Source of the DNA: Synechococcus sp. RS9909
GTDB taxonomy: Bacteria; Cyanobacteriota; Cyanobacteriia; PCC-6307; Cyanobiaceae
NCBI RefSeq assembly: GCF_014279595.1
Contig: NZ_CP047943.1
Coordinates: forward strand, 2,416,422 to 2,480,421
Length of the DNA: 64,000 bases
Direction of reading: 5' to 3'
The notes under the pieces are model-generated. The model saw only the letters and a program-made list of their open reading frames with translations, searched no databases and was not told where the DNA came from. Within the stretch, counting starts at the first letter, position 1. Each line of letters begins with the position of its first letter. This document shows positions 22,541-35,706 of this stretch, piece by piece. Both the position numbers and the translations under genes were made by a program.

Positions 22541-22792
22541 ATGGCTACCAGCCCCCGCGAGGTCTCCAAATCGCAGTTCAAGGCCCAGGCGCTGGCCCTG
22601 TTCCGCGAGATCGAAGCCAGTGGTGAAACCGTGGTGATCACCGATCACGGCCGGCCTGCGCTGGAAGTTCGGCCCTATCGGCACCTGCAGAACGATGCAG
22701 CCGATCCACTGGAGGCACTGCGCGGGTCGGTCACGCACTTCGACCAACCGCTTGAACCCGTTGCTGAGGCTGACTGGGAGGCCCTGGCATGA
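22541..22792 (+). CDS. Type II antitoxin, Phd/YefM family
   Basis: The 83-residue protein has the Phd/YefM DNA-binding N-terminus: REVSKSQFKAQALALFREIEASGETVVITDHGRPALEVRPY. An acidic tail probably wraps the toxin. It overlaps the downstream PIN toxin by four bases (ATGA, 22789-22792), the coupling usual for such pairs. It is likely autorepressed at the adjacent palindromes. Confidence 0.88.
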   Translation: MATSPREVSKSQFKAQALALFREIEASGETVVITDHGRPALEVRPYRHLQNDAADPLEALRGSVTHFDQPLEPVAEADWEALA

Positions 22793-23181
22793 TCCTGCTC
22801 GACACCCACGTGCTGATCTGGTGGGCCAACGGTGAGCACGACAGACTCTCCGCTGCAGCGATCGCGGCGATCGAAGCGGAGGAACAGCAACGCCTGGTGT
22901 CGGCCATCAGCTGCTGGGAAGTGGCCATGCTGGTGGAACGAGGGCGACTCGGCCTGAACGTCGACATGGAACGCTGGCTCAACCTGGTGGCATCGGTACC
23001 CAGGCTGAAGCTGCTGCCCCTGAGCCCGGCAGTCGCCGTGGCCTCCACCCGACTCCCCCGGACCTTCCATGCCGACCCCGCCGATCGGTTCCTCGTGGCC
23101 CAGGCCCGCCATCTGAACATCGCCTTGGTGACGGCAGACTCCAAAATCAGGGCCTACCCGCACGTCCGCAGTCTGTGGTGA
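22789..23181 (+). CDS. PIN-domain toxin (VapC-like ribonuclease)
   Basis: PIN toxins are metal-dependent ribonucleases. This 130-residue protein keeps the acidic residues expected of an active site: Asp5 in LLDTHVLIWW, Glu44 in SCWEVAML, Asp96 and Asp99 in FHADPADRFLVAQA, and Asp117 in VTADSKI. It pairs with the Phd/YefM antitoxin upstream through a four-base overlap. Its 3' end overlaps the GTG start of speA by seven bases. Confidence 0.9.
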   Translation: MILLDTHVLIWWANGEHDRLSAAAIAAIEAEEQQRLVSAISCWEVAMLVERGRLGLNVDMERWLNLVASVPRLKLLPLSPAVAVASTRLPRTFHADPADRFLVAQARHLNIALVTADSKIRAYPHVRSLW

Positions 23182-25127
23182 TCGCCCCCTCCGCCAGCGC
23201 AGGCCAGCACCAGGGCTGGACCCCAGCCGACAGTGCCGAGCTCTATGGCTTGGAGCGCTGGGGCGAGCCCTACTTTTCGATCAATCCCCGCGGCCATGTG
23301 AGCGTGCAGCCACGCGGTGATCGCGGTGGCAGCCTCGATCTGATCGACCTGGTGGCGGGCCTGCAGGACCGCAACCTGGGCCTGCCGCTGCTAATCCGCT
23401 TCGACGACATCCTCGAAGACCGGCTGGAACGGCTGCATGGTGCTTTCGAGCGGGCGATCACCCGCTATGGCTACGCCGGGCGCTACCAGGGCGTCTTCCC
23501 GGTGAAATGCAACCAGCAGCGCCACGTGGTGGAGGAGCTGGTGAGCTGCGGCAAACGCTGGCATTTCGGACTGGAAGCCGGCAGCAAAGCCGAGCTGCTG
23601 ATCGCCCTCTCCTTGATCGACGACCCGGACGCCCTGCTGATCTGCAACGGCTACAAGGATCAGCGCTACATCGAAACGGCGATCCTGGCCCGGCGGCTCG
23701 GACGCCGTCCGGTGGTGGTGATCGAGCAGGCCGATGAGGTGCAGCGCATCATCGCGGCAAGCGAAGCGCTGGGGGCGGCACCGCTGATCGGCATCCGGGC
23801 CCGGCTCTCCAGTCGCAGCACCGGCCGCTGGGGCAGCTCCGTGGGCGAAAAAGCGAAATTCGGCCTGCCGGTGCCTGAGATTCTTGCCACCGTTGAAGCC
23901 CTGCGAGAGGCCAACCTCCTGGAGGAACTGCGGCTGCTGCATTTCCACGTAGGCAGTCAGATCAATGACATCGCCGTGGTGAAAGACGCTCTGCAGGAGG
24001 CCTCCAGGATTTATGTGGAACTGCATGCCCTCGGCGCACCGATGGGCTACATGGACGTGGGCGGTGGCCTGGGGATCGACTACGACGGCAGCCGTACGGC
24101 CACGGCGGCCTCCACCAACTACTCGCTGCAGAACTACGCCAATGATGTGGTGGCAACGGTGCAGGAAGGCTGCGCCCCCCACGGGGTGGCGGTGCCGACG
24201 CTGGTGAGCGAAAGCGGGCGGGCGATCGCGAGCCATTTCTCCGTGCTCGTGTTCGATGTGCTCGGCAGTGGCGGCCTGCAGCAGAGCGCTCCCCCCGAGG
24301 CAGGGGAAGAACCGCTGATTGTGCGCAACCTGCGCGACACCCTGGCGGGCATCCACACCCTCCCCGCCGATGCAACTGCCGATGTCTCCCGGCTCCAGGA
24401 GGCCTGGAACGATGCACTCAAATTCAAGGCTGACGCCCTGGCCGCCTTCCGGCTCGGCTATCTGAGCCTGCAGGACCGCAGCCTGGCGGAACAACTCACC
24501 TGGGCCTGTGCCCGTGCCCTGTTGGATCGGTTACCGGAAGGCGGCACTCTTCCAGAGGATCTCAAGGAACTGCCCGCCGTTCTGGCGGAGACCTACTACG
24601 CCAACCTCTCGATTTTTCGTTCCGCTCCAGACACCTGGGCGATCCAGCAGCTCTTCCCTGTGATGCCACTGCATCGCCTCGATGAGAAGCCAACGCGCCT
24701 CGGCCATTTCGCAGATCTCACCTGCGATTCCGATGGACGGTTGAGCCGTTTCATCAGCGATGGCCGCAGCAAACCGCTGCTCGAGCTCCACCCCCTGGTG
24801 GCTGACCAGCCCTATTTGATCGGCCTGTTTCTCGGCGGCGCCTATCAGGAGGTGATGGGCAATCTGCACAATCTGTTCGGCAGCACCGATGCGGTGCACA
24901 TCCGCCTCGCACCCGGCGGCGACTACCAGGTGGACCATGTGGTGCGCGGCGACACCAACGCGGATGTGCTCCAGGCGATGGAGCATGTGCCGGATCTGTT
25001 GCTCGAACGGCTGCGCATCGCCAGCGAGCAAGCGATCAGCCGCGGCGCTCTCCGCATCAGCGACGCCCGCCTGCTGATGGACCATCTGGAAAGCAGCTTG
25101 CGCCAGAGCACTTACCTGAAGAATTGA
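23175..25127 (+). CDS. speA: Biosynthetic arginine decarboxylase
   Basis: SpeA converts arginine to agmatine, the first step of polyamine synthesis, using PLP. The 650-residue protein has the PLP lysine in YQGVFPVKCNQQ, LLHFHVGSQIND, the phosphate-binding GGGLGIDYDGS, and VSESGRAIASHFSVLVFD. Long C-terminal helices match the alanine-racemase-fold SpeA family in length. The start is one of two adjacent GTG codons (23175 or 23178) that overlap the toxin stop. It may partly depend on the toxin-antitoxin transcript. Confidence 0.95.
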   Translation: MVIAPSASAGQHQGWTPADSAELYGLERWGEPYFSINPRGHVSVQPRGDRGGSLDLIDLVAGLQDRNLGLPLLIRFDDILEDRLERLHGAFERAITRYGYAGRYQGVFPVKCNQQRHVVEELVSCGKRWHFGLEAGSKAELLIALSLIDDPDALLICNGYKDQRYIETAILARRLGRRPVVVIEQADEVQRIIAASEALGAAPLIGIRARLSSRSTGRWGSSVGEKAKFGLPVPEILATVEALREANLLEELRLLHFHVGSQINDIAVVKDALQEASRIYVELHALGAPMGYMDVGGGLGIDYDGSRTATAASTNYSLQNYANDVVATVQEGCAPHGVAVPTLVSESGRAIASHFSVLVFDVLGSGGLQQSAPPEAGEEPLIVRNLRDTLAGIHTLPADATADVSRLQEAWNDALKFKADALAAFRLGYLSLQDRSLAEQLTWACARALLDRLPEGGTLPEDLKELPAVLAETYYANLSIFRSAPDTWAIQQLFPVMPLHRLDEKPTRLGHFADLTCDSDGRLSRFISDGRSKPLLELHPLVADQPYLIGLFLGGAYQEVMGNLHNLFGSTDAVHIRLAPGGDYQVDHVVRGDTNADVLQAMEHVPDLLLERLRIASEQAISRGALRISDARLLMDHLESSLRQSTYLKN

Positions 25128-25132
25128 TCGCG

Positions 25133-26602
25133 ATGGCCCTTCTGCTCAGCCTTTTTGCCATCGGATCTCTCCTTGGCCTTCAACGCGTGTGCCGGACTCG
25201 AAATCTCACACCGCCGCCGCTGCGTTTGCCATTGATTGCGGCCATTGCGATTCCGGTGCTCACGTTGATGGTGGCAATTCTGGAGCAGAGCAGGCTCGCT
25301 CTGCTGACCCAGAGCCTGAAAACCGCCATCAGTTTATTGTGGATTTACAGCATCATTCGGTTGCTCAGCTGGGGCTCACTGCAACTGCCGTCCGAGCTGG
25401 GCTGGTGGAAACCCACCGCCAAAATTCTCCGGGATCTTCTCACCCTGGCGATCGCCACTTCAATCACCCTGATCGTGATTCACCGTGACTTCCAGGTGAA
25501 CCTGGTGGGCCTGGCCGCCACCTCAGCCGTGCTCACGGCCGTGATTGGTCTGGCCGCCCAGGAAACCCTGAAAAACCTTTTTGCCGGCATTTCTCTACAG
25601 GTGGATTCTCCTTTTGAAGAAGGCGACTGGATTGATCTTGGTTTCACCCGAGGGGTGGTGACCTCGCTTCGCTTGATGACCACACGCATCCATACCCTGG
25701 AGGGTTCCTTGACCGTGATCCCCAACAGCCGCATCGCCGTGGAGAGTCTGCGGCGCTTTAAACCAGGCGATCCAGTGGGTCAGATTGTGGAGGTCGGTCT
25801 TGACTACAGCCTGCCTCCCAGGCAAGCGATCAATCTTCTTCAGACCATCGTTCAACGCAATCGCAAAGTTCTCAAGGAACCGACTCCCAAAGTGTGGCTC
25901 GACGCCTTTGCCGACAGCTCAATCAACTATCGCCTGCTCACCTGGCAGAACTCGGCGCTGGAGCAACTTCAGCTGAAAAGTGATCTTCTCGAGCAGATCT
26001 GGTACGCCCTGCAACGCATCGGCCAATCGATTCCTTTCCCGATCCGAGACATTCGCTCAGAACCTTCCCCGGCCCTACTGCCATCAGACACTGTCAGCGA
26101 GGAAGCGAAACAACAACTTCTGGCCAGCCTGGAGATCTTCTCCCATCTCACTGCCGATCAACTGCAACGACTGGCCGCGCAAGGCCGCTGCCAAAGTTTT
26201 GCTCCAGGAGAAGTGGTGGTGAGGGAAGGCGAACGAGGTCACAGCCTGTTTGTGATCGTGAGTGGAAGCCTGGATGTGCTGCAGGGGGAAGGTGAAGGCC
26301 AGGCCCACCGAATTGCGAGCCTCACAACAAGCGACGTCTTTGGAGAGATGGCTCTCTGCACAGGCGAACCTCGCGCGGCCACGGTGATCTGCAACGACGA
26401 GTGCGTTCTCCTGGAAATCGAACGACGCCATCTCATCCCCCTGATGGAGGAGCATCCAGAAATCCTTGAAACGATCGGCACCTTGATGGCGACGCGGCGC
26501 AAGGAACTGCGCACCCTCTCCCAGCGACGATCGGAAACCCGTCGTCGGGCCCTGATTGGTCGCATGCAGCGATTGTTCAATCTCGCCAGCGACACCCCAT
26601 GA
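25133..26602 (+). CDS. MscS-family channel with C-terminal cyclic-nucleotide-binding domain
   Basis: The 489-residue membrane protein has four or five hydrophobic helices in the first 150 residues (for example PLIAAIAIPVLTLMVAIL and DLLTLAIATSITLIVI). A pore helix with the MscS-like VLTAVIGLAAQETLKNLFAG and the beta domain (SPFEEGDWIDLG, TVIPNSRI) follow. Residues about 335-450 form a cyclic-nucleotide-binding domain. Its phosphate cassette FGEMALCTGEPRAATV (403-418) closely matches that of protein kinase A, with the conserved Gly-Glu and Arg. This is a bacterial cyclic-nucleotide-gated channel layout. It overlaps the adenylate cyclase gene at ATGA, so the signal is probably made by its neighbour. 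Ion specificity is unknown. Confidence 0.9.
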   Translation: MALLLSLFAIGSLLGLQRVCRTRNLTPPPLRLPLIAAIAIPVLTLMVAILEQSRLALLTQSLKTAISLLWIYSIIRLLSWGSLQLPSELGWWKPTAKILRDLLTLAIATSITLIVIHRDFQVNLVGLAATSAVLTAVIGLAAQETLKNLFAGISLQVDSPFEEGDWIDLGFTRGVVTSLRLMTTRIHTLEGSLTVIPNSRIAVESLRRFKPGDPVGQIVEVGLDYSLPPRQAINLLQTIVQRNRKVLKEPTPKVWLDAFADSSINYRLLTWQNSALEQLQLKSDLLEQIWYALQRIGQSIPFPIRDIRSEPSPALLPSDTVSEEAKQQLLASLEIFSHLTADQLQRLAAQGRCQSFAPGEVVVREGERGHSLFVIVSGSLDVLQGEGEGQAHRIASLTTSDVFGEMALCTGEPRAATVICNDECVLLEIERRHLIPLMEEHPEILETIGTLMATRRKELRTLSQRRSETRRRALIGRMQRLFNLASDTP

Positions 26603-28494
26603 GCTGGAAGCGCTGGCTTCTGCCTTACGTCGCGGCCAGCGCACTGCTGGTGGGTTTCCAGGCATCACCAGCTGCAGAAACGCTCAATCTGCTGCTCTAC
26701 GACCTGGTCGCCAGCCTGCGAGAAACGCAGCACTCCCCTGACGATGGTGCCATCACCGTGGTGGGAATCGACGAAGCCGATCTCAAGGCCTTCAAGTGGC
26801 CCATCCCCGATCGCCACCTCTGCGGCGCCATCCAACGGCTTGAGACCCTTGGCGCCAGCGCAATCGGGCTCGACCTCTACCGCGATCCAATCGGAACCGA
26901 CTCCGCGACCTGCCTGAGCACACTCATTCAGACCAACCCGCGGCTCATCTCCATCCACAACATGGCCGATGCGATTCCTGCGATTCCCGGCACGCCACCG
27001 CGCCAGCAGGCTTTCAATGATCTGGTGGTGGACAGCGATCGCGTCGTGCGACGCGATCTCGTGCATGTGGGCGGACAGAGCGAAGCGGTCCGCTCCCTTC
27101 CCCTGAGGTTGCTGGAAACCGCCAGGGGCAATCCCAACCTCCATCGGCAGCTGGAGGCCTTACCCGCTGAGATCTGGTTGCAACCCCAGTCCGGCGGTTA
27201 CCAACGGCTCGATGCCTCGGGCTATCAAACGATGCTGCCCGTGCACCCTCCCGGCCGCTTCCCGATCGTCTCACTCCGAGCTTTGCTGTCCGGTCGCGTT
27301 GACGCCTCCAGCATCCAGGACCGGATCGTTCTGATCGGCAGCACCGCTCCCTCCCTCAAGGATCAGTTCGAGATTCCCCAGAGTCGCCTGGATCAGGGCG
27401 AACGTTTTCTCGCGTTACCGGGTGTGGAGCTGCATGCGCAGCGCCTCGCCTCTCTCCAGGCCCTGCTTCGGGATGGTCAGGCTCCGATCCGCACTGCCTC
27501 TGCCCTGCAGCGTCACCTCCTTCTGGCGGTCATGCTTCTGCTGGGAATCGCCATTGCCGAACGACCACACCGGATCCGTCGCAGCAGCCTCCTGCTCGGC
27601 CTGAGTGCACTGGCTCTGTTCGGCACGAGCGTTCTCTTGCTGTTGGAGGGCGTCTGGATCGGCATTGCCCTGCCCCTCAGTGGGCTGATCCTCTTCGGCA
27701 GCACCGGCATTCTGCGGCGAGGGGCGATCAGCCAGCGGCATCAACAGGAGATGGCTCGCCTGCTCGGGCAGGCCACATCGCCAGCTGTGGCCCAACAGCT
27801 CTGGGAGCAACGGGCTGACCTGATTCAGGACGGCCGCTTCGCCGGTCGTGAACAACCGGTGACGATCCTGTTCACCGACACCTGCCATTTCACCCGGGTT
27901 TCGGAGCAACTCAGCCCAGCCGCGTTGATGGACTGGCTCAATGCGGGAATGGCCATCAGCGTGGACGCCGTCACCAGCCGCGGGGGCATGGTCAACAAAT
28001 TCACAGGTGATGGCATGCTGGCCGTGTTTGGCGCACCGATCTCTGCCGGCCTGGAACGCGATGCCTCCCAGGCCCTGGAGGCCGCCAGGGCCATTCAGAC
28101 GGGGATCGCCAGGCTGAATCGGGATCTGCAAGCCCGTGGGGCCTGGCCGTTAAAGCTACGCATCGGCATCCATTCGGGACTGGTTCTCACCGGGTCCCTG
28201 GGCAGCCGCTCACGCCTGGAGTATGCCGTGATCGGCGACACCGTGAACTGCGCCTCACGCCTGGAAAGCCTGGACAAGGATCGCCATCAGGGATGGGTGC
28301 GCGTTCTGATATCCGCCGAAAGCCTCAGCCTGGCAGGAGTGAATCCGAAGGATGACGCTGTCATCGACTGGGGTGAGGTCCACGTGAAAGGCCGCACAGA
28401 ACCACTGAGGGTTTTCGAGTGGCGGGATCAGGTGAACGTGGAAACCGCCATCAACGACACACCACAGGGATCATCTCCGGCCACTGAGAACTGA
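26599..28494 (+). CDS. CHASE2-domain class III adenylate cyclase
   Basis: The 631-residue membrane cyclase has an N-terminal hydrophobic anchor, an extracytoplasmic CHASE2 sensor (about 25-295, with VVGIDEADL, GASAIGLDLY and DRIVLIGSTAPSLKD), and three transmembrane helices (about 306-320, 330-349, 351-368). The class III catalytic domain (about 418-600) follows. Metal aspartates are Asp427 in FTDTCHF and Asp471 in NKFTGDG. Lys467 and Asp547 fit the adenine-selecting pair; Asn550 and Arg554 in GDTVNCASR stabilise the transition state. All catalytic positions are kept, so an active cAMP-forming enzyme is expected. It is translationally coupled to the channel gene upstream. Confidence 0.94.
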   Translation: MSWKRWLLPYVAASALLVGFQASPAAETLNLLLYDLVASLRETQHSPDDGAITVVGIDEADLKAFKWPIPDRHLCGAIQRLETLGASAIGLDLYRDPIGTDSATCLSTLIQTNPRLISIHNMADAIPAIPGTPPRQQAFNDLVVDSDRVVRRDLVHVGGQSEAVRSLPLRLLETARGNPNLHRQLEALPAEIWLQPQSGGYQRLDASGYQTMLPVHPPGRFPIVSLRALLSGRVDASSIQDRIVLIGSTAPSLKDQFEIPQSRLDQGERFLALPGVELHAQRLASLQALLRDGQAPIRTASALQRHLLLAVMLLLGIAIAERPHRIRRSSLLLGLSALALFGTSVLLLLEGVWIGIALPLSGLILFGSTGILRRGAISQRHQQEMARLLGQATSPAVAQQLWEQRADLIQDGRFAGREQPVTILFTDTCHFTRVSEQLSPAALMDWLNAGMAISVDAVTSRGGMVNKFTGDGMLAVFGAPISAGLERDASQALEAARAIQTGIARLNRDLQARGAWPLKLRIGIHSGLVLTGSLGSRSRLEYAVIGDTVNCASRLESLDKDRHQGWVRVLISAESLSLAGVNPKDDAVIDWGEVHVKGRTEPLRVFEWRDQVNVETAINDTPQGSSPATEN

Positions 28495-29071
28495 TCAGAT
28501 CCTCGAGCCCGAATGCAGCGGCAAGGGGCTGCAAAGGAATGGAGCTGCCACAGTTGGCCTGGAGAGCCTCCAGCTGCGGGCTCAGCATGGCTTCACCAGA
28601 AACCGACTCTTTGAGCAACAGACTTTTAGCCGGGGGCGCCTCGACCCCAAGAAAGCCGAATTCATCGGCCGCGGGTGCATCAGCGCATTGATACGACGAT
28701 TCCCACACCAAGGGAAAGGCAACTGTGGCTGGAACGGAGAAAAGAACAAGTCTGGGACCTCCTCCCGTTTCCATTGTGCGGCTGAAAACCGCCGCATCCT
28801 GCTGGCGCAACGTCAGCTGCAGAGGCCTGGGGTCGCTCGTGGGCCCCTCCAACCAGGCGATCAATCGTGTCGCTCCGGGGGTGTACACACTCGATTCGGG
28901 AACCAGATGGATGATCTGGCGGGCAGCACATTCCCCTCGTGTGCCGCCACCGATCCGTCGACCGGGAAAAGCATTGCGCGACTGCGCCTGCACTGAAACG
29001 GCAGCCAAGGCTGTCAACAGCCATGCCAGGGCGAGCATGCCCAACACACTGGGGCGATGAGAACGGATCAC
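28451..29071 (-). CDS. DUF928-like exported protein
   Basis: This is a 206-residue exported protein if the GTG at 29071 is used, giving a positively charged n-region (IRSHRPSVLG) before the hydrophobic LALAWLLTALAAVSVQA; an ATG at 29038 is the alternative. After the signal peptide come GRRIGGGTRGECAARQIIHLVPES and a beta-rich region, which fit DUF928, a cyanobacterial family often near CHAT and CHASE2 genes. Cysteines in GECAAR, YQCADA, ANCGSS and VVCR could pair. It follows the CHAT exoprotein on the same strand and overlaps the convergent cyclase end by 44 bases. Its role is unknown. Confidence 0.65.
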   Translation of the reverse strand: MIRSHRPSVLGMLALAWLLTALAAVSVQAQSRNAFPGRRIGGGTRGECAARQIIHLVPESSVYTPGATRLIAWLEGPTSDPRPLQLTLRQQDAAVFSRTMETGGGPRLVLFSVPATVAFPLVWESSYQCADAPAADEFGFLGVEAPPAKSLLLKESVSGEAMLSPQLEALQANCGSSIPLQPLAAAFGLEDLISSQWPEMIPVVCR

Positions 29072-29195
29072 AACCGGGCAGCAAACAACGACTGCAGGGT
29101 GGCGCCCTTCCACACCCACCTGCATTGATCCCGGTCACACCCTCGTGTGCGTTGCGTCAATCGCTGAACAGCCATGGTCAGAGCCCTCATCAGCG

Positions 29196-32100
29196 TCACC
29201 AGGGGGAACCGATCAGCTCGATGCCAGCCCAGAAAAAGGGATTCTCCATGCCCCCGGCAACGCGACGTCGCTGCGCCGCGTCCAGATCACGCAGCAAGGG
29301 TTCGCCCATCGCGCCGATCACCCGATCACCCTGCAGTTGAACCTGCCCTTGCGCAAACAATTGCCGGGTGCGCTGAAGCGCCTCGGCCTTGGGAACTCCC
29401 TGCTCCAGGAAGCGATAAAACTGCACGAAAAATGCCGATGTCACCACATCATCGACATACCAGAGCGTACCGACGGCACTGCGGGCTCCGGCCTGAAGCG
29501 CCAGACCGGCAAAACCCAGTTCGCTGTCTGGATCTCCGAGCAACGTGCGACACGCACTGAGCACCACCAGATCCAGAGGGGCCTCGCTGCGCTGGCGACG
29601 CAGACGCGCGAATGCTGCCATCGACATCGGCCCGGCCCCGGTGTGCAAAACGGAGCGGGATGGCCCACCCGGGCGGAAGTCGGCATGCGTGGCCACGTGC
29701 ACCCGGCCGTAACGCGGATCGCTGGCCAGCGCGATCAGCGTTGAGGGAGTGAAGGCGCTGTTGAGGTAACGATCCGTGCTGACCGCATCCTGAATGTTGC
29801 TGAGTTCCTGAGGCACCAGGGGCAACGGTGCAAGGCCCTCGAATTCGGAAGCCCCCATGGCCAGAAGACCGCTGGAGCGTGTTGCAGCATTGAGATCCGT
29901 GAGTGCCAGAGAAGGGGTCAGACCGAAGGCATAACGCGTACCGAAATAGGTTGCTCCATCGCTGAGAGCCGCGAAGGGCACGGCCTGGAGTCCCTGGTCC
30001 GCAGCGATAAGCAGGGTGGTGATGCCCTGATCGCGCAATCCCTGCTGGATGGGCTCGATCAACAGCTGATGCAGTTGTCGGGATGCCGAACGGGGATCGC
30101 TGACCTCGAGTGACTCCTGACGGGACAGCTGGCGATACAACGCCTTCAACAGCGCAGCAAACCGTTCACGCGACACCGCGACGCGGCGAGAGACCACCTC
30201 CCCTGAAGCGGGGACCAGGGTGAGATCGAGAAAGCTTTCGTTCTGGGCTGTGAAACGGACCTGGAGCACGGCTGGCTTCACACCATCTCTCGCCTGTGCC
30301 TGCTGCTGAACCTGCTGAAGCGTCGTCTGGATCTGGGTAAGAGAAGGGGTTTCAGGCACGGTTCCAGCGAGCCCGTCCGAAAGGCCCAGGGCAGCCACAG
30401 TGCGCTGGGTCGCCTCCTGGTCAGCCCCACGCAATTGATCCACCGCCTCATCGGCAGAGAGCGCCACCACCGTCGGAGCCTCCGATGACGGAACGCGTGA
30501 AGCCTCTGCCGCATCCGAACCCCCCTGACCCAGGTCAACAACGAGTGCCGTGGTTTGTGGAGCGGTCTGCGAGGCCAAGGAAGCTGCTCCCAACGAACTC
30601 TCGGGATCGAGAGCATCCTGCGTCGCTGCCAGCTGCAGTGCAGGCTGGAGCGGCGGCGCCTCAGCCACCGCATCAAGAGCGACAACGGCCTCACGATCCT
30701 CCGCATCAGTGCTGGTGGCCCTTGGAATGGGTATCGGTTCGGGTGTCGGCTCCGGATCAGGTGTGGGCTCAGGGCCCGGATCAGGCTCCGTGCAGAGGTT
30801 GGAGGTGCCAGAACCCGAACATGTGGCCGAGGTGGGTGAAGAGGAGAGCACATCGAGTACTCCGGCTTCAACCAAAGTCTGGCCGCTGTAGATGATGGCC
30901 GCTGATGAAGCAAAACGCAGGGTGCCATCCCCCTGTTTGATGAAATCGCCACGGCCACTGATCGGCGCATCCCAGATCAGCGTGGCAGCTGCATCGTTGA
31001 CACTGATCCCGCCGCCACCGCTGCCGAGTTCCAACGCAACACCTGTCACCGTTTCACTCGCATCGCGGCGCAACAATGAGCCGCCAGAGAGAGCAATCGT
31101 GATCGGATTGCCGCCATCGATCACCACACTGCCAACAGGCTGATCCAGCCAGAGAGTGCCACCACCAGTGGCAGCCAAACGCCTGAGGAACAGGGTGTCT
31201 TGGAATCGGATGTCACCACTTCCGCTCTGCGTGAAGTCGCCGTAGCCAGTTGGCGTCTGGCCATCACCCAGATTGATCGCAGCGGAACTGGTTAGAGCAC
31301 CATCACCGGTCGCATTGAGATTGGACGCGAAAGCACTGGCAGCGGGATCCACCGTCACGGCATTCCCACTAATAGGGCTCAGGATCAGGCGATCCTGTCG
31401 CAGATCCAGTGAGGATGTTCCGTTCAATGTGAGCGTGCTTGAGAGCGTGTTCACGCCAGACCAATTCCTCAGAGTTCCGCCCTTGAGCATGATCGGCTCC
31501 CCCACATTCAGCCCGCCACTGAGTTCGAGAGCAGCACCGGATTCAACAGTGGTGGAGGCAGCAGCAGATCCCAGGGCATTGGCATCCAGCAGCCGCAGCG
31601 CTCCTGCCTCCACGGTGGCAGCTCCGGTCCAGCCACTGTTATTTCCAGAAAGAATCAAACGACCGTTCCCGACCTTAAAGAGATCACCGTTACCGCTGAG
31701 CGTGGCGGCGAAGGCAGGCGCTGATGCCCCAGGGGTGCCGATGGTGCTATCACCTGTTGAGATTTTCAGGGGCCCGTTCAAGGCAAGCGTTGCTGCCGCA
31801 GCTCCTTCAACAAAACCCGCACCGGCATTCAATGTCAGCCCGCCACTGCCGGTGGTGATGTTGGAATTCAACTTGATGTAGCCGGAAGCGTCGAGCACGA
31901 GGCGGCCAGTCGACGACGAATAATCCAGAGGCGCTCCCGCCTGCCACGTGATGTTGCCCCCTTCAGAGGTGGTGCCTGGCCCTGTTGCAATCCGCACATT
32001 TGTTGAAGTCCCCAACGCCGTGTCGAGATCATCAACATCGATCAGTGATGGTGACGACGTGGACTCAAAAAGACGCCCGTTCGGATCAACTGGATCTGTG

Positions 32101-33200
32101 ACGTCAAACGTATTTCCTGTGGTCGTGCTGATGGTGATGTTGTAGGGATCCAATAGCCACTCACCCACAACACCGCCAACGGCGCCCACATCCAGCCGCT
32201 CCGGTTTCGCCAGCAGAAATGCTCCAGAGGTCTCCACCCGACCACCGTTGCCACCCAAGGGTCCACCCCGTGCCAGCAGGGTTCCTTCGACCACCGTTCC
32301 GCCGGAGCTGTTGTTCAGATCACTCCAGATCACCACGGTGCCCCCATCGCCCTGGCCGGTGGAAGACGCATCCACGAGCGAACCTGGCTGGACCCAGGTC
32401 TGCGCGGCCTGACGCACGGTCGGGTCACTGTTCTGCCAACTACCACCCACCTGCACCAGGCCGCCGTCGCGACTGCCGGTGGCCAAAAGGGCCGAACCGG
32501 CCCCAACGCGCACCTGATCTGCGGTGAGCGTGAGCGTGCCACCGTCGCCGCTGGAATTGCTCGCAGATAGCCGACTGGACTCGACATCAATCCGGCCCCC
32601 GGGAGCATCCACAAGCAACGACTCCTCCACATCAATGCTGATGCCTTCCATGCGGATCCAAGGCCGGCGATCCTCATCGAGGACGCCACGGAGCCCCAGC
32701 TGTCCCGGCAGGGGGTCACCATGCAACGCCGTAAGGGCAGAGGCCGGGGAACGCAACACATCAAACACTCCGCCAGGAAAGTGGAGTTGGCTGGCCGTGC
32801 TCAGGGTGAGCTGGGGGACCTGCAGGAAGCCTGCGCCGGGCATCAACTGGATCCCCCCCGGCGAGAGCAGAAACAGATGGGCTGGCGAGGTGAGCGCCAC
32901 CGCTTTATCGATGAAGCTTCCCTCCGACGCCGTGACACCCAGCACGAGATTGCGAATGCCATCGCTCTGAATCTCCACCGACTGGATCGCTCCGCGGGTA
33001 TCAAACTGACGCAGGCGATGAAACCGATTCGTGCCGGCATCCTGGCCGCCACCGATCCTGCAGATACCGCTGTTGCAGCTGCCTCCCAGGGCACCATTGA
33101 CGCGACTGCCCAGGGAGGGATCAGCCGTGACCTGCGCACGCACAGCAGAACCCAGCCCCGAAACAACGAGCAGAAGCGACAGAACAGACGAGGCTTTCAT
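29196..33200 (-). CDS. Two-partner-secretion exoprotein (TpsA) with C-terminal CHAT domain
   Basis: This 1334-residue protein has a signal peptide (1-22) and a haemagglutination-type TPS secretion domain (about 25-280, with NLVLGVTASEG and LFLLSPGGIQLMPGAGF in place of the usual NPNGI). A beta-helical stalk with autotransporter-type repeats follows (GDLFKVGNGRLILSGNNSGW, GDFIKQGDGTLRF). Then come a Pro/Glu/Asp linker (TEPDPGPEPTPDPEPTPEP) and a C-terminal CHAT domain. The caspase-like dyad is kept: His1172 in VHVATHADF and Cys1217 in VVLSACRT. CHAT domains are clan CD peptidases, so a surface or secreted protease is plausible. The divergent TpsB gene is next door. The ATG at 33200 follows a weaker in-frame TTG. 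Confidence 0.92.
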   Translation of the reverse strand: MKASSVLSLLLVVSGLGSAVRAQVTADPSLGSRVNGALGGSCNSGICRIGGGQDAGTNRFHRLRQFDTRGAIQSVEIQSDGIRNLVLGVTASEGSFIDKAVALTSPAHLFLLSPGGIQLMPGAGFLQVPQLTLSTASQLHFPGGVFDVLRSPASALTALHGDPLPGQLGLRGVLDEDRRPWIRMEGISIDVEESLLVDAPGGRIDVESSRLSASNSSGDGGTLTLTADQVRVGAGSALLATGSRDGGLVQVGGSWQNSDPTVRQAAQTWVQPGSLVDASSTGQGDGGTVVIWSDLNNSSGGTVVEGTLLARGGPLGGNGGRVETSGAFLLAKPERLDVGAVGGVVGEWLLDPYNITISTTTGNTFDVTDPVDPNGRLFESTSSPSLIDVDDLDTALGTSTNVRIATGPGTTSEGGNITWQAGAPLDYSSSTGRLVLDASGYIKLNSNITTGSGGLTLNAGAGFVEGAAAATLALNGPLKISTGDSTIGTPGASAPAFAATLSGNGDLFKVGNGRLILSGNNSGWTGAATVEAGALRLLDANALGSAAASTTVESGAALELSGGLNVGEPIMLKGGTLRNWSGVNTLSSTLTLNGTSSLDLRQDRLILSPISGNAVTVDPAASAFASNLNATGDGALTSSAAINLGDGQTPTGYGDFTQSGSGDIRFQDTLFLRRLAATGGGTLWLDQPVGSVVIDGGNPITIALSGGSLLRRDASETVTGVALELGSGGGGISVNDAAATLIWDAPISGRGDFIKQGDGTLRFASSAAIIYSGQTLVEAGVLDVLSSSPTSATCSGSGTSNLCTEPDPGPEPTPDPEPTPEPIPIPRATSTDAEDREAVVALDAVAEAPPLQPALQLAATQDALDPESSLGAASLASQTAPQTTALVVDLGQGGSDAAEASRVPSSEAPTVVALSADEAVDQLRGADQEATQRTVAALGLSDGLAGTVPETPSLTQIQTTLQQVQQQAQARDGVKPAVLQVRFTAQNESFLDLTLVPASGEVVSRRVAVSRERFAALLKALYRQLSRQESLEVSDPRSASRQLHQLLIEPIQQGLRDQGITTLLIAADQGLQAVPFAALSDGATYFGTRYAFGLTPSLALTDLNAATRSSGLLAMGASEFEGLAPLPLVPQELSNIQDAVSTDRYLNSAFTPSTLIALASDPRYGRVHVATHADFRPGGPSRSVLHTGAGPMSMAAFARLRRQRSEAPLDLVVLSACRTLLGDPDSELGFAGLALQAGARSAVGTLWYVDDVVTSAFFVQFYRFLEQGVPKAEALQRTRQLFAQGQVQLQGDRVIGAMGEPLLRDLDAAQRRRVAGGMENPFFWAGIELIGSPW

Positions 33201-33311
33201 CAAGGCTGGGCGCCGACCATCGAGAAACTCAGACAGCCAAGAGGCACATCAATTTAGGCAGGATTCGCATCGATCTCTAAGGTTCGGCGGCGCCAGGCCA
33301 AACCCATCGCG
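33201..33311. promoter_or_regulatory. Divergent promoter region between tpsA-CHAT and tpsB
   Basis: The 111-base spacer must drive both genes. A near-symmetric pair TTTAGG (33253-33258) and CTCTAAGG (33275-33282) lies in its middle. It could supply a weak -35/-10 pair in each direction or an operator. No strong consensus promoter is visible. Confidence 0.35.
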
Positions 33312-34988
33312 ATGCTGTTCCTGCTGGCGCAACTGGTGTCTCCGCCGCTGCAACCCGGCCCAGCCCGCATTCCTGCACCCGCAACCGTCGAACAGGAACC
33401 GCAACAAGACACGGATCCGTTGCAGCTCTCTCCGGAGAGCGCGCCCTCGCCACGTCAACCGGATCGATTGCCGCGCCCCAAGCAGTCACAGCCACCCTGG
33501 ACTCCCGCTGTTGAGGGAGCAACGCCTTACACCGCCGAGGAACTCAGCGCGATTCTCAGTAGCTGTGATCACATCAACCCCGAACGCAGCCTGCAGTTGT
33601 GCTCCGAAGCGCTCACAGCTCGGCTGCAACAAGACGGGTATGTGAACTCCAGGGTGTTTGTGGAGCGGGATCCACCTCCCGGACGACTGGTGGTGGTGCT
33701 GGGGCGCCTGGTGGAGATCCGTGTGGATGCCGAGACACCCGGTCTGGGCCAACGGGTGCGACAGGCGCTCCGCAACCTTCTGGGAGAACCCCTGCAGCTG
33801 CCTGTCCTCCAGACCAGACTGCGTCAGCTGCGCCAGCGCCAGATTGTTGGCAGCGTGTCTGGGAGCCTGGGAAAGCTGGGCAGCGATCCCACCCAGGCCG
33901 TGCTTCAACTCTCGGTCACGGCGCCACGCCATCCCTGGAGGGGCGACATCAGCCTGCGCAATGACGGCAATGCCGGCAGCGGCGAATGGCGCGCCCTTGC
34001 CGTTCTGCAGAAACGCGAGCTACTGCTCGAGGGTGATGTGCTTCAGCTTTACGGAGAAGGGAATACCGACAGCGATCCGGAATTCGGCACCGGAATCGGC
34101 TCGCTCAGCTACACCCTGCCTCTCGGCGCCAAAGTCAGCCTGACCGGCTCATTCGGAGCAAGCCGACGTAACTTTGTAGAAGCCAGCGGAATTGCCCATG
34201 GCCTCAGCTTTCGTCAGTACCAGGGCTTGGGGCAACTCCAATGGACCTTCTCCGAGAGCGACAGCCAGAGCTGGTATGCCTTCGCCGGCCTGAGTGCCAA
34301 TCACAACAACAGCTACCTGAATGATGCGTCCTTTCCCCTGATTATTGGCGGCGGCCTGGATGGCGACCTAACCACAGGGTATCTCCGCTTCGGGATCGGC
34401 AGCAGCGGCCAAAGTGGCTCCTGGGCCTGGTCAGGGCAGCTCTATGGCCTGCAGGGAATCGCGGGGTTCAGCTCCCAGCAAGAGTTACAGAATCTTGGCT
34501 TCTTCGGCATCGACCCCGGCGAATCGAGGGCACTGGGGGGGATCATCAGCAACAGCTGGGCCTTGTCACCCAACCTGCAATGGTCGCTGCGTGCCGCTGG
34601 CCAGGTTGCATTCCATGAGCTCACCAACGACATGGGGTTCTCCTTAGGCAGTGACACGGGACTCCGTGGCCTTCCTGGCACCCTGATCAGCGGTGACAGC
34701 GGCTGGCTGGGCAGCACAGAACTGGCCTGGACCTTCTGGCAGCAACAGCAGAACGCCTTGCAGCTGGTGCCTTTCCTCGGAATGGGTGGAATCAGCACTC
34801 AACGCGATGCGATCACGTTCTCCGACACCATTGGTTCAGGTGGCCTGCTGCTGCGCTGGCTCAACGGTCGTCACTGGAGCGTGGAGCTGGGATGGATCGA
34901 TCAGTTCCAGGACGATGACAACACTGGCTTCTGGAATGACTGGCTCCTCGGCAGCGGCCTCTACGGGAAACTCCGTTACCGCTTTTGA
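33312..34988 (+). CDS. TpsB outer-membrane transporter (ShlB/FhaC/HecB family)
   Basis: The 558-residue protein is the Omp85-type pore of a two-partner secretion system. A short hydrophobic N-terminus and a Pro-rich segment (about 15-65) precede POTRA-like domains (TAEELSAILSSCDHINPERS, QDGYVNSRVFVERDPPPGRLVVVLG). A 16-strand barrel-type region follows, with the loop-6 motif GLRGLPG at 450-456 and a terminal Phe, both typical. Its substrate is almost certainly the divergent CHAT exoprotein. Codon use matches its neighbours. Confidence 0.93.
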   Translation: MLFLLAQLVSPPLQPGPARIPAPATVEQEPQQDTDPLQLSPESAPSPRQPDRLPRPKQSQPPWTPAVEGATPYTAEELSAILSSCDHINPERSLQLCSEALTARLQQDGYVNSRVFVERDPPPGRLVVVLGRLVEIRVDAETPGLGQRVRQALRNLLGEPLQLPVLQTRLRQLRQRQIVGSVSGSLGKLGSDPTQAVLQLSVTAPRHPWRGDISLRNDGNAGSGEWRALAVLQKRELLLEGDVLQLYGEGNTDSDPEFGTGIGSLSYTLPLGAKVSLTGSFGASRRNFVEASGIAHGLSFRQYQGLGQLQWTFSESDSQSWYAFAGLSANHNNSYLNDASFPLIIGGGLDGDLTTGYLRFGIGSSGQSGSWAWSGQLYGLQGIAGFSSQQELQNLGFFGIDPGESRALGGIISNSWALSPNLQWSLRAAGQVAFHELTNDMGFSLGSDTGLRGLPGTLISGDSGWLGSTELAWTFWQQQQNALQLVPFLGMGGISTQRDAITFSDTIGSGGLLLRWLNGRHWSVELGWIDQFQDDDNTGFWNDWLLGSGLYGKLRYRF

Positions 34989-35019: not shown

Positions 35020-35706
35020 TCACAGCAGCAGACCACGCTTACGCAGCGGTGCGAGGTCACTGAGTTGCAGGCCGCCGTTCGCCTCGCTCACCACACCCCT
35101 GCTGCGTAACTTGCTGAGCGTGCGCGAGGCCGTTTCCCTGGCCAGGCCAGCCAGAAGGGCAATCTCCTTCTGGGCCAGAGGCGGGATCGGCGCTTCCACA
35201 TCAGCCTGGCCGGAACTCTTCCGTGCCAGGTAGGCGAGGGCATCGAGCAGGCGGGTGGTGGCGTCGGCGCTCTGCAGGGCAAAGCGTTGATTCAGATCAC
35301 GCAGGCGTCCCGCCTCGAGGCGGGCCAGGGCCAGGGCGAAGGCGGGCTGCTGCTGCAACAGCGCAGCGAAGGGAGCCGAGCGCAGCTTCACCAGACGCAG
35401 GGGAGTCAGAGCCACCACATCCGCCGAACGCGATGCGCCATCCAGAGCCGCCATCTCACCGAACACATCTCCCGGACCCAGGAGCGACATGATCACCTCA
35501 TCACCGTCGGCGGTGGTGGTGCGCACCTTGGCCAGACCGTCGCGAATCAGAAACAGCGACTCGCCCCAGTCCTGTTCCATCACAATCACCTGATCGATCT
35601 GGTGATCGCTCTGGCGATGACGATCGAGCAAGCGATCGAGATCGTCGCCGTTGAGATCTGCAAAGAGGGTGATCGCCGCGAGGGCCTCACGCGTGAGGGC
35701 AGACAT
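35020..35706 (-). CDS. Crp/Fnr-family regulator, probably cAMP-responsive
   Basis: This 228-residue regulator has an N-terminal cyclic-nucleotide-binding fold (about 10-125), a dimerisation helix (about 125-155) and a winged helix at about 170-215 (LAQKEIALLAGLARETASRTLSKLRSRGVV). The binding pocket keeps Gly-Glu (83-84) and Arg-Ser-Ala (93-95) in FGEMAALDGASRSADV, matching the residues that hold the cAMP phosphate in E. coli Crp. No Fe-S or NtcA-type features are seen. It converges on tpsB, 31 bases away, and lies 6.5 kb from the adenylate cyclase gene. Its targets cannot be deduced from the window. Confidence 0.85.
   Translation of the reverse strand: MSALTREALAAITLFADLNGDDLDRLLDRHRQSDHQIDQVIVMEQDWGESLFLIRDGLAKVRTTTADGDEVIMSLLGPGDVFGEMAALDGASRSADVVALTPLRLVKLRSAPFAALLQQQPAFALALARLEAGRLRDLNQRFALQSADATTRLLDALAYLARKSSGQADVEAPIPPLAQKEIALLAGLARETASRTLSKLRSRGVVSEANGGLQLSDLAPLRKRGLLL

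Follow-up and report, generated by a model that had tools for sequence, protein, structure and literature searches.

A CHASE2 cyclase gene overlapping the gene for a cyclic-nucleotide-binding MscS-type channel in Synechococcus sp. RS9909: a putative membrane signaling unit with relatives among cyanobacteria

A channel gene and a cyclase gene overlap downstream of speA

We analyzed a stretch of 64,000 nucleotides (hereafter, the window) from Synechococcus sp. RS9909, whose genome is one contig of 2.60 Mb (NZ_CP047943.1; the window spans its positions 2416422-2480421). Two genes on the + strand form the subject of this study. The first (25133..26602) encodes a 489-amino-acid MscS-type channel with a cyclic-nucleotide-binding domain (CNBD), of the bacterial cyclic nucleotide-gated (bCNG) type, and the second (26599..28494) encodes a 631-amino-acid class III adenylate-type cyclase with a CHASE2 domain. 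Both assignments are based on open reading frames (ORFs), Pfam matches, and AlphaFold2 models. The two ORFs share the four bases ATGA, which confirms the overlap given in a preliminary description of this DNA made from its letters alone.

Directly upstream on the same strand lies speA (23175..25127), recognized as an arginine decarboxylase gene by Orn_Arg_deC_N and two further arginine decarboxylase domains in Pfam. Its end is separated by 5 bases from the ATG at 25133 from which the channel was read; an alternative in-frame TTG start at 25124 would overlap speA. Cyclase searches of the genome covered the Pfam profiles for class III (PF00211) and class I (PF01295) enzymes, and they returned a single PF00211 match, the CHASE2 cyclase, and no PF01295 match. 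The CNBD profile PF00027 matched nine times, counting the channel and a CRP-type gene of the window.

The channel and the cyclase retain their key residues

In the channel, MS_channel_2nd (residues 145-202), MS_channel_3rd (219-295), and cNMP_binding (354-441) all scored above the curated Pfam cut-offs, with PF00924 at E 7.9e-15 and PF21082 at E 9.9e-14 for the MscS parts and PF00027 at E 4.8e-21 for the C-terminal CNBD. The AlphaFold2 model, which is of modest confidence (mean predicted local distance difference test [pLDDT] 74.4, predicted template modeling score [pTM] 0.35), shows five N-terminal helices, an MscS body, and the CNBD. The phosphate-binding cassette of this domain, FGEMALCTGEPRAATV (residues 403-418; 26339..26386, + strand), contains the ribose-contacting Glu405 and the phosphate-contacting Arg414, and both residues are conserved in 27/27 typed channels of the host family, the Cyanobiaceae. 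The preliminary description had called the cassette almost that of protein kinase A (PKA). The cassette itself stands, but since the channel matches 207 distinct PDB sequences at E <= 0.001, it is of the ordinary cyclic-nucleotide type and bears no special likeness to PKA. Structural alignments (VIA-align), which spanned the CNBD and the cyclase domain and hardly covered the CHASE2 part and the pore, placed the CNBD on solved cAMP- and cGMP-binding domains (cyclic AMP and cyclic GMP) with Z about 16-18.

The cyclase carries CHASE2 at residues 15-317 (26641..27549, + strand; PF05226, E 5.6e-45, 154.4 bits against a cut-off of 26.3) and the class III catalytic domain at residues 417-601 (27847..28401, + strand; PF00211, E 2.3e-19). 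Its AlphaFold2 model is again of modest confidence (mean pLDDT 74.7, pTM 0.51), and the closest solved structure is CyaC 1wc1 (Z 27.1, root mean square deviation 1.7 over 189 residues). The metal-binding D427 and D471, the adenine-contacting K467, and the transition-state residues N550 and R554, all listed in the preliminary description, are kept in 41/41 sequences, and the cyclase thus resembles CyaC-type and CHASE2 class III cyclases in fold and in its D, K, D, N, R set. The same list had counted Asp547 as catalytic. An Asp does occupy that number, but it is the Asp of a VIGDTVN motif, and the second base-selecting position (N550 minus 7) is Ala543 when the sequence is aligned with Spirulina platensis CyaC (1wc0) and Pseudomonas aeruginosa CyaB (3r5g). 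Both of these enzymes have Thr there, a difference that sets the window cyclase apart from the CyaC type. Among 41 orthologues this position is Ala in 39, Thr in 1, and Ser in 1; therefore, Ala543 is a family feature and not a sign of decay.

The identity of the other base-selecting residue points to the likely substrate. The guanylyl cyclase Cya2 (2w01) is 33% identical to the window catalytic domain over 190 residues (Z 24.6), and it also has a small second base-selecting residue, with Gly at the Ala543 position; however, Cya2 has Glu where the window cyclase has Lys467. Since Lys stands in place of this Glu, adenine rather than guanine is expected, and by this analogy the CHASE2 cyclase would use an adenine nucleotide.

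Cyclase and channel are linked across the host family

We surveyed 300 genomes of the Cyanobiaceae, counting channel and cyclase matches at E <= 1e-40. A channel match was found in 95 genomes, a cyclase match in 71, and both in 62. A CNBD-MscS match lies within 3 kb of the cyclase for 48 of the 75 cyclase matches (48 of the 71 cyclase-bearing genomes) and within 15 kb for 53 of the 75, while about 0.3 would be expected by chance within 3 kb, assuming genomes of 2.9 Mb and independent placement. The gene pair that the preliminary description had singled out is therefore conserved among related genomes.

The linked pairs within 15 kb occur in three orders: 28 have the channel first and the cyclase second on the same strand, 12 have the reverse order, and 13 are convergent. 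With one exception, the channels of the convergent pairs belong to a separate subfamily that is 26-30% identical to the window channel, and the 8 of them that are present in our channel tree form one clade. On this tree, in which the placement of long rows is unsure, the linkage label requires 9 changes, 8 of them forced by well supported branches. Altogether, the family linkage, the two separate channel subfamilies, and the three gene orders support the view that cyclase and channel are functionally paired.

Individual loci illustrate these arrangements. The window order speA-channel-cyclase recurs at L011-L016, L018, and L019, and L017 ends inside the channel. At L020 and L023 the cyclase precedes the channel, with the gene for an exported protein (described below) between them; no cyclase was seen at L021 and L022, and at L024 the sole cyclase match is weaker and lies on the opposite strand. 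Loci L025-L028 matched the MscS part only and were excluded. In all five loci fetched from the same genus (L089-L093), the channel overlaps the cyclase. The contigs of L018 and L019 are labeled as metagenome-assembled genomes of Crocinitomicaceae; they carry the cyanobacterial order speA-channel-cyclase-exported protein and are probably mis-binned.

We propose that the CHASE2 cyclase and the CNBD-MscS channel probably form a two-protein membrane signaling unit that leads from a cue through cAMP to the channel, a reading that we favor with some reserve. CHASE2, positioned outside the inner membrane, would respond to a cue and modulate the catalytic class III domain in the cytoplasm, which would make cAMP from ATP. 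The cAMP would then bind the CNBD that lies beneath the MscS-type pore in the jointly made channel, and the opening of this channel would change in one direction or the other, so that an outside cue would alter the flux of ions or osmolytes. In outline, this interpretation of the gene pair is likely, and its comparative support goes beyond what could be known when the DNA was first described. Bacterial cAMP is mostly read as a transcription signal. If the proposal is true, a sensor cyclase co-produced with a channel of its own would constitute a fast, membrane-local cAMP circuit amenable to a simple genetic test, and the window pair includes the only class III cyclase found in its genome.

The cyclase has other candidate partners in the same island

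Four further genes of the island, omitted from the preliminary description, follow the cyclase. The first (28451..29125, - strand) lies tail to tail with the cyclase gene and overlaps its 3′ end. Its product has an FPGRRxGGGTRGEC motif and four Cys that are invariant across 12 aligned sequences, and a Pfam search gave no family match; export is predicted from a by-eye reading of its hydrophobic N-terminus. An identification as DUF928, suggested by the motif, was rejected, as the window protein has no Pfam match of any kind; the only PF06051 (DUF928) match in the genome is below the cut-off (E 0.31) and at another location. The gene is followed by one for a secreted-type CHAT protein with a passenger repeat (29196..33203, - strand; CHAT E 5.3e-52, PATR E 2.1e-9), one for a TpsB/ShlB-type outer-membrane transporter (33312..34988, + strand; ShlB E 1.5e-17), and one for a CRP/FNR-type regulator (35020..35706, - strand; cNMP_binding, HTH_Crp_2, and Crp in Pfam), the last being a second possible reader of cAMP in the island.

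In a census of 40 fetched cyclase loci, 25 of which had been picked for channel linkage, the exported protein is present in 39; it is convergent with the cyclase in 36 and within 200 bp in 34. The other neighbors are CHAT (30), TpsB (29), the channel (26), speA (20), and a gene like the CRP-type regulator at 35020 (7). At L123, L124, and L127 the exported protein gene immediately precedes the cyclase gene in the same orientation, and L103 has three tandem copies of it. If CHASE2 has a periplasmic partner, we infer the exported protein to be its strongest candidate. Several partners encoded in the island, the channel among them, probably serve the cyclase. The exported protein would provide input, perhaps together with the secreted CHAT/TpsB pair, and the CRP-type regulator would read cAMP alongside the channel.

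These neighbors can also be read differently, with the cyclase serving primarily in a cell-surface system of exported protein, CHAT, and TpsB, its main output being transcription through the CRP-type regulator and the channel being an optional reader or a passenger. The order of frequencies in the census and the mostly overlapping, tail-to-tail placement of the exported protein agree with this, as do the presence of a CRP-type gene within the window and the occurrence, in several genomes whose cyclase lacks a linked channel (G062, G082, G047, G056, and G127), of a further CNBD gene no more than about 2.5 kb from the cyclase. CRP and the channel are, moreover, given as alternatives in the passages of Doré et al. 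2020 (PMC7522525) that concern such islands. However, no more than 7 of the 40 loci have a gene like this regulator, channel and cyclase genes overlap at every same-genus locus fetched, and separate channel clades have acquired the linkage. We therefore regard this explanation as somewhat unlikely, while it retains appreciable weight.

A purely positional explanation, in which channel and cyclase are functionally unrelated and merely occupy one variable island on the downstream side of speA, is suggested by speA itself, which in many loci adjoins one of the two genes regardless of whether the other is present and also adjoins many unlinked channels; the passages in Doré et al. 2020 (PMC7522525) likewise treat the region as a genomic island module. 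We consider this improbable as a full account, given that the genes overlap and are co-directional, that the convergent pairs use a different channel subfamily, and that direct pairs occur in other cyanobacterial families, where no speA was found among the neighbors scanned in 20 loci.

Several observations nevertheless weigh against the proposed cyclase-channel unit. The cyclase is tied more constantly to the exported protein (39/40) than to the channel (26/40), even in a sample enriched for channels. For 22 of the 75 family cyclase matches, no channel match lies within 15 kb, a number from which contig ends and the E cut-off may conceal some channels. As the speA-side loci constitute a shared hotspot, with speA in half of the census loci, part of the linkage may be positional. 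In reality, cAMP might be read by other proteins of the genome that contain a CNBD. Lastly, the second adenine-selecting residue of class IIIa and IIIb enzymes is Asp, Thr, or Ser, and the window cyclase, having Ala543, falls outside this strict rule for class III adenylyl cyclases; the residue is unusual, and the adenine substrate remains predicted from sequence.

Cyclase-channel pairs recur in other cyanobacterial families

The preliminary description had supposed that an obvious dedicated cyclase seldom accompanies such channels, which proves wrong for cyanobacteria. In a survey of 291 genomes of the class (channel matches at E <= 1e-30), 102 have a channel match, and those outside the host family comprise 105 matches in 92 genomes. 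When the DNA around all of these loci was read, 66 of the 105 CNBD-MscS genes proved to be preceded, within 300 bp and on the same strand, by an ORF for a class III cyclase; in 19 of these pairs the cyclase and channel genes overlap, in 7 of them by exactly four bases. Pfam searches of nine neighbor cyclases and that of L148 revealed two architectures, dCache_1-(HAMP)-Guanylate_cyc and CHASE2-Guanylate_cyc. Operons of dCache cyclase and CNBD-MscS channel (among L129-L233; e.g., L129:4970-8721 and L140:5147-8708) occur across many cyanobacterial families, and at L217:2040-4640 (+ strand) a dCache-HAMP-cyclase with a C-terminal globin domain adjoins the channel.

The two architectures differ in the state of their sites. 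We called a cyclase site broken when it lacks one or more of the residues Asp, Lys/Glu, Asp, Asn, and Arg, and typed it in 64 of the non-family pairs (the short cyclase ORFs of L174 and L178 were left untyped); the channel cassette was readable in 63, L187 being truncated before the Arg. In 58 of these 63 pairs, a broken cyclase accompanies a cassette without Arg, in 5 both are intact, and in none is the state mixed. The dCache operons have the broken site and a replaced cassette Arg, mostly by Ser. The intact pairs are L146, L200, and L220, of the guanylate type (Glu..Gly), and L196 and L197 (Lys..Thr). Together with L148, where the cyclase lies 867 bp away, they make up six non-family CHASE2 neighbors in which the cassette Arg and all cyclase site residues are kept, CHASE2 having been identified by Pfam in all except L200, which was judged by its likeness to L146. 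One exception lies beyond the 300 bp rule: at L166, a cyclase ORF in which D, K, D, A, N, and R are all present lies 1,484 bp upstream of a channel without Arg.

On the channel tree, the state of the cassette Arg needs only 2 changes, and the broken pairs are confined to one region; the 58 of 63 thus stand closer to one evolutionary event than to 58. The varied breakage of the paired cyclases suggests, from their sequences, relaxed selection after the loss, and a broken site may be completed within a heterodimer. Loss of the Arg also occurs in cyclase-less channels (Cys 10, Ser 8, Tyr 2, and Phe 1 among 39 unlinked). The Cys replacements, with no cyclase found nearby, are at L147, L205, L208, L210, L212, L213, L218, L221, L228, and L230. 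One structural match of the window CNBD, 6h4g, is a regulatory subunit of Trypanosoma brucei PKA, described by its depositors as cAMP-independent, and by analogy it offers a precedent for a CNBD that abandoned cAMP.

From these pairs we tentatively derive a wider possibility, which we hold to be less probable than not: a recurrent cyanobacterial two-gene receptor, whose living CHASE2 form would signal by cyclic nucleotide and whose dCache form would gate the channel without cAMP. In the dCache pairs, control of the channel by the cyclase-like receptor would rely on direct contact or on a different purine ligand, making in effect a two-protein ligand-gated channel. The contrast between intact CHASE2 pairs and doubly lost dCache pairs offers a direct route to asking whether gating needs the product of the partner.

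Two readings of the non-family data were discarded. A result in which no channel lay within 15 kb of a CHASE2 cyclase outside the family, obtained from an incomplete set of close relatives' coordinates in which the best candidates per genome alone were scored, was an artefact; it was overturned when the DNA around all 105 non-family channels was read. We also found no support for a matching of cAMP or cGMP in which the residue that follows the cassette Arg (Ala/Ser or Thr) would covary with the cyclase Lys/Glu; both the Glu-type and the Lys-type non-family CHASE2 partners carry Thr there.

Relation to known systems

bCNG channels, reportedly described by Caldwell and colleagues in 2010 and by Malcolm and colleagues in 2012, likewise have an MscS body followed by a CNBD. 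The window channel differs in being encoded together with a CHASE2 cyclase and in its five predicted N-terminal helices, and its gating is predicted.

The kind of island found in the window is already reported in marine picocyanobacteria. In the passages concerned, Doré et al. 2020 (PMC7522525) describe a module, Syn_GI122, with adenylate cyclases near CRP or a cAMP-regulated MscS channel, together with secreted CHAT proteins, and the window very probably holds an island of the same kind. Those passages give the module one sentence, in which gene orders, residues, the exported protein, and the pairs in other cyanobacteria do not appear. A literature search, made mostly without subscription papers, found none on cyanobacteria-wide cyclase-channel operons or on the joint loss, which is weak evidence of novelty.

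The pair also invites comparison with Pycsar anti-phage systems, in which a cyclic nucleotide made on infection would act on a CNBD membrane protein that damages the membrane. PADLOC matched the cyclase to PycC (PDLC00734, 84.1 bits) and the channel CNBD to PycTIR (56.9 bits), and the genes lie in an island. However, these matches span only the shared cyclase and CNBD domains. A Pycsar pair combines a PycC cyclase with a TIR or small transmembrane effector, and here Pfam shows no TIR and the cyclase carries CHASE2, which faces outward; the neighbors are secretion genes and speA. In addition, the adenine Lys is kept, and K467 suggests by analogy an adenine nucleotide as opposed to the cyclic CMP or cyclic UMP of Pycsar. 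We consider a defense function of this kind extremely improbable.

A scan for regulatory sites gave 0 promoter-like sites against 0.5 expected and 3 terminator-like sites against 3.5 expected. Upstream of speA, two small overlapping ORFs on the + strand (22541-22792 and 22789-23181) resemble, by the impression of their translations, a toxin-antitoxin pair.

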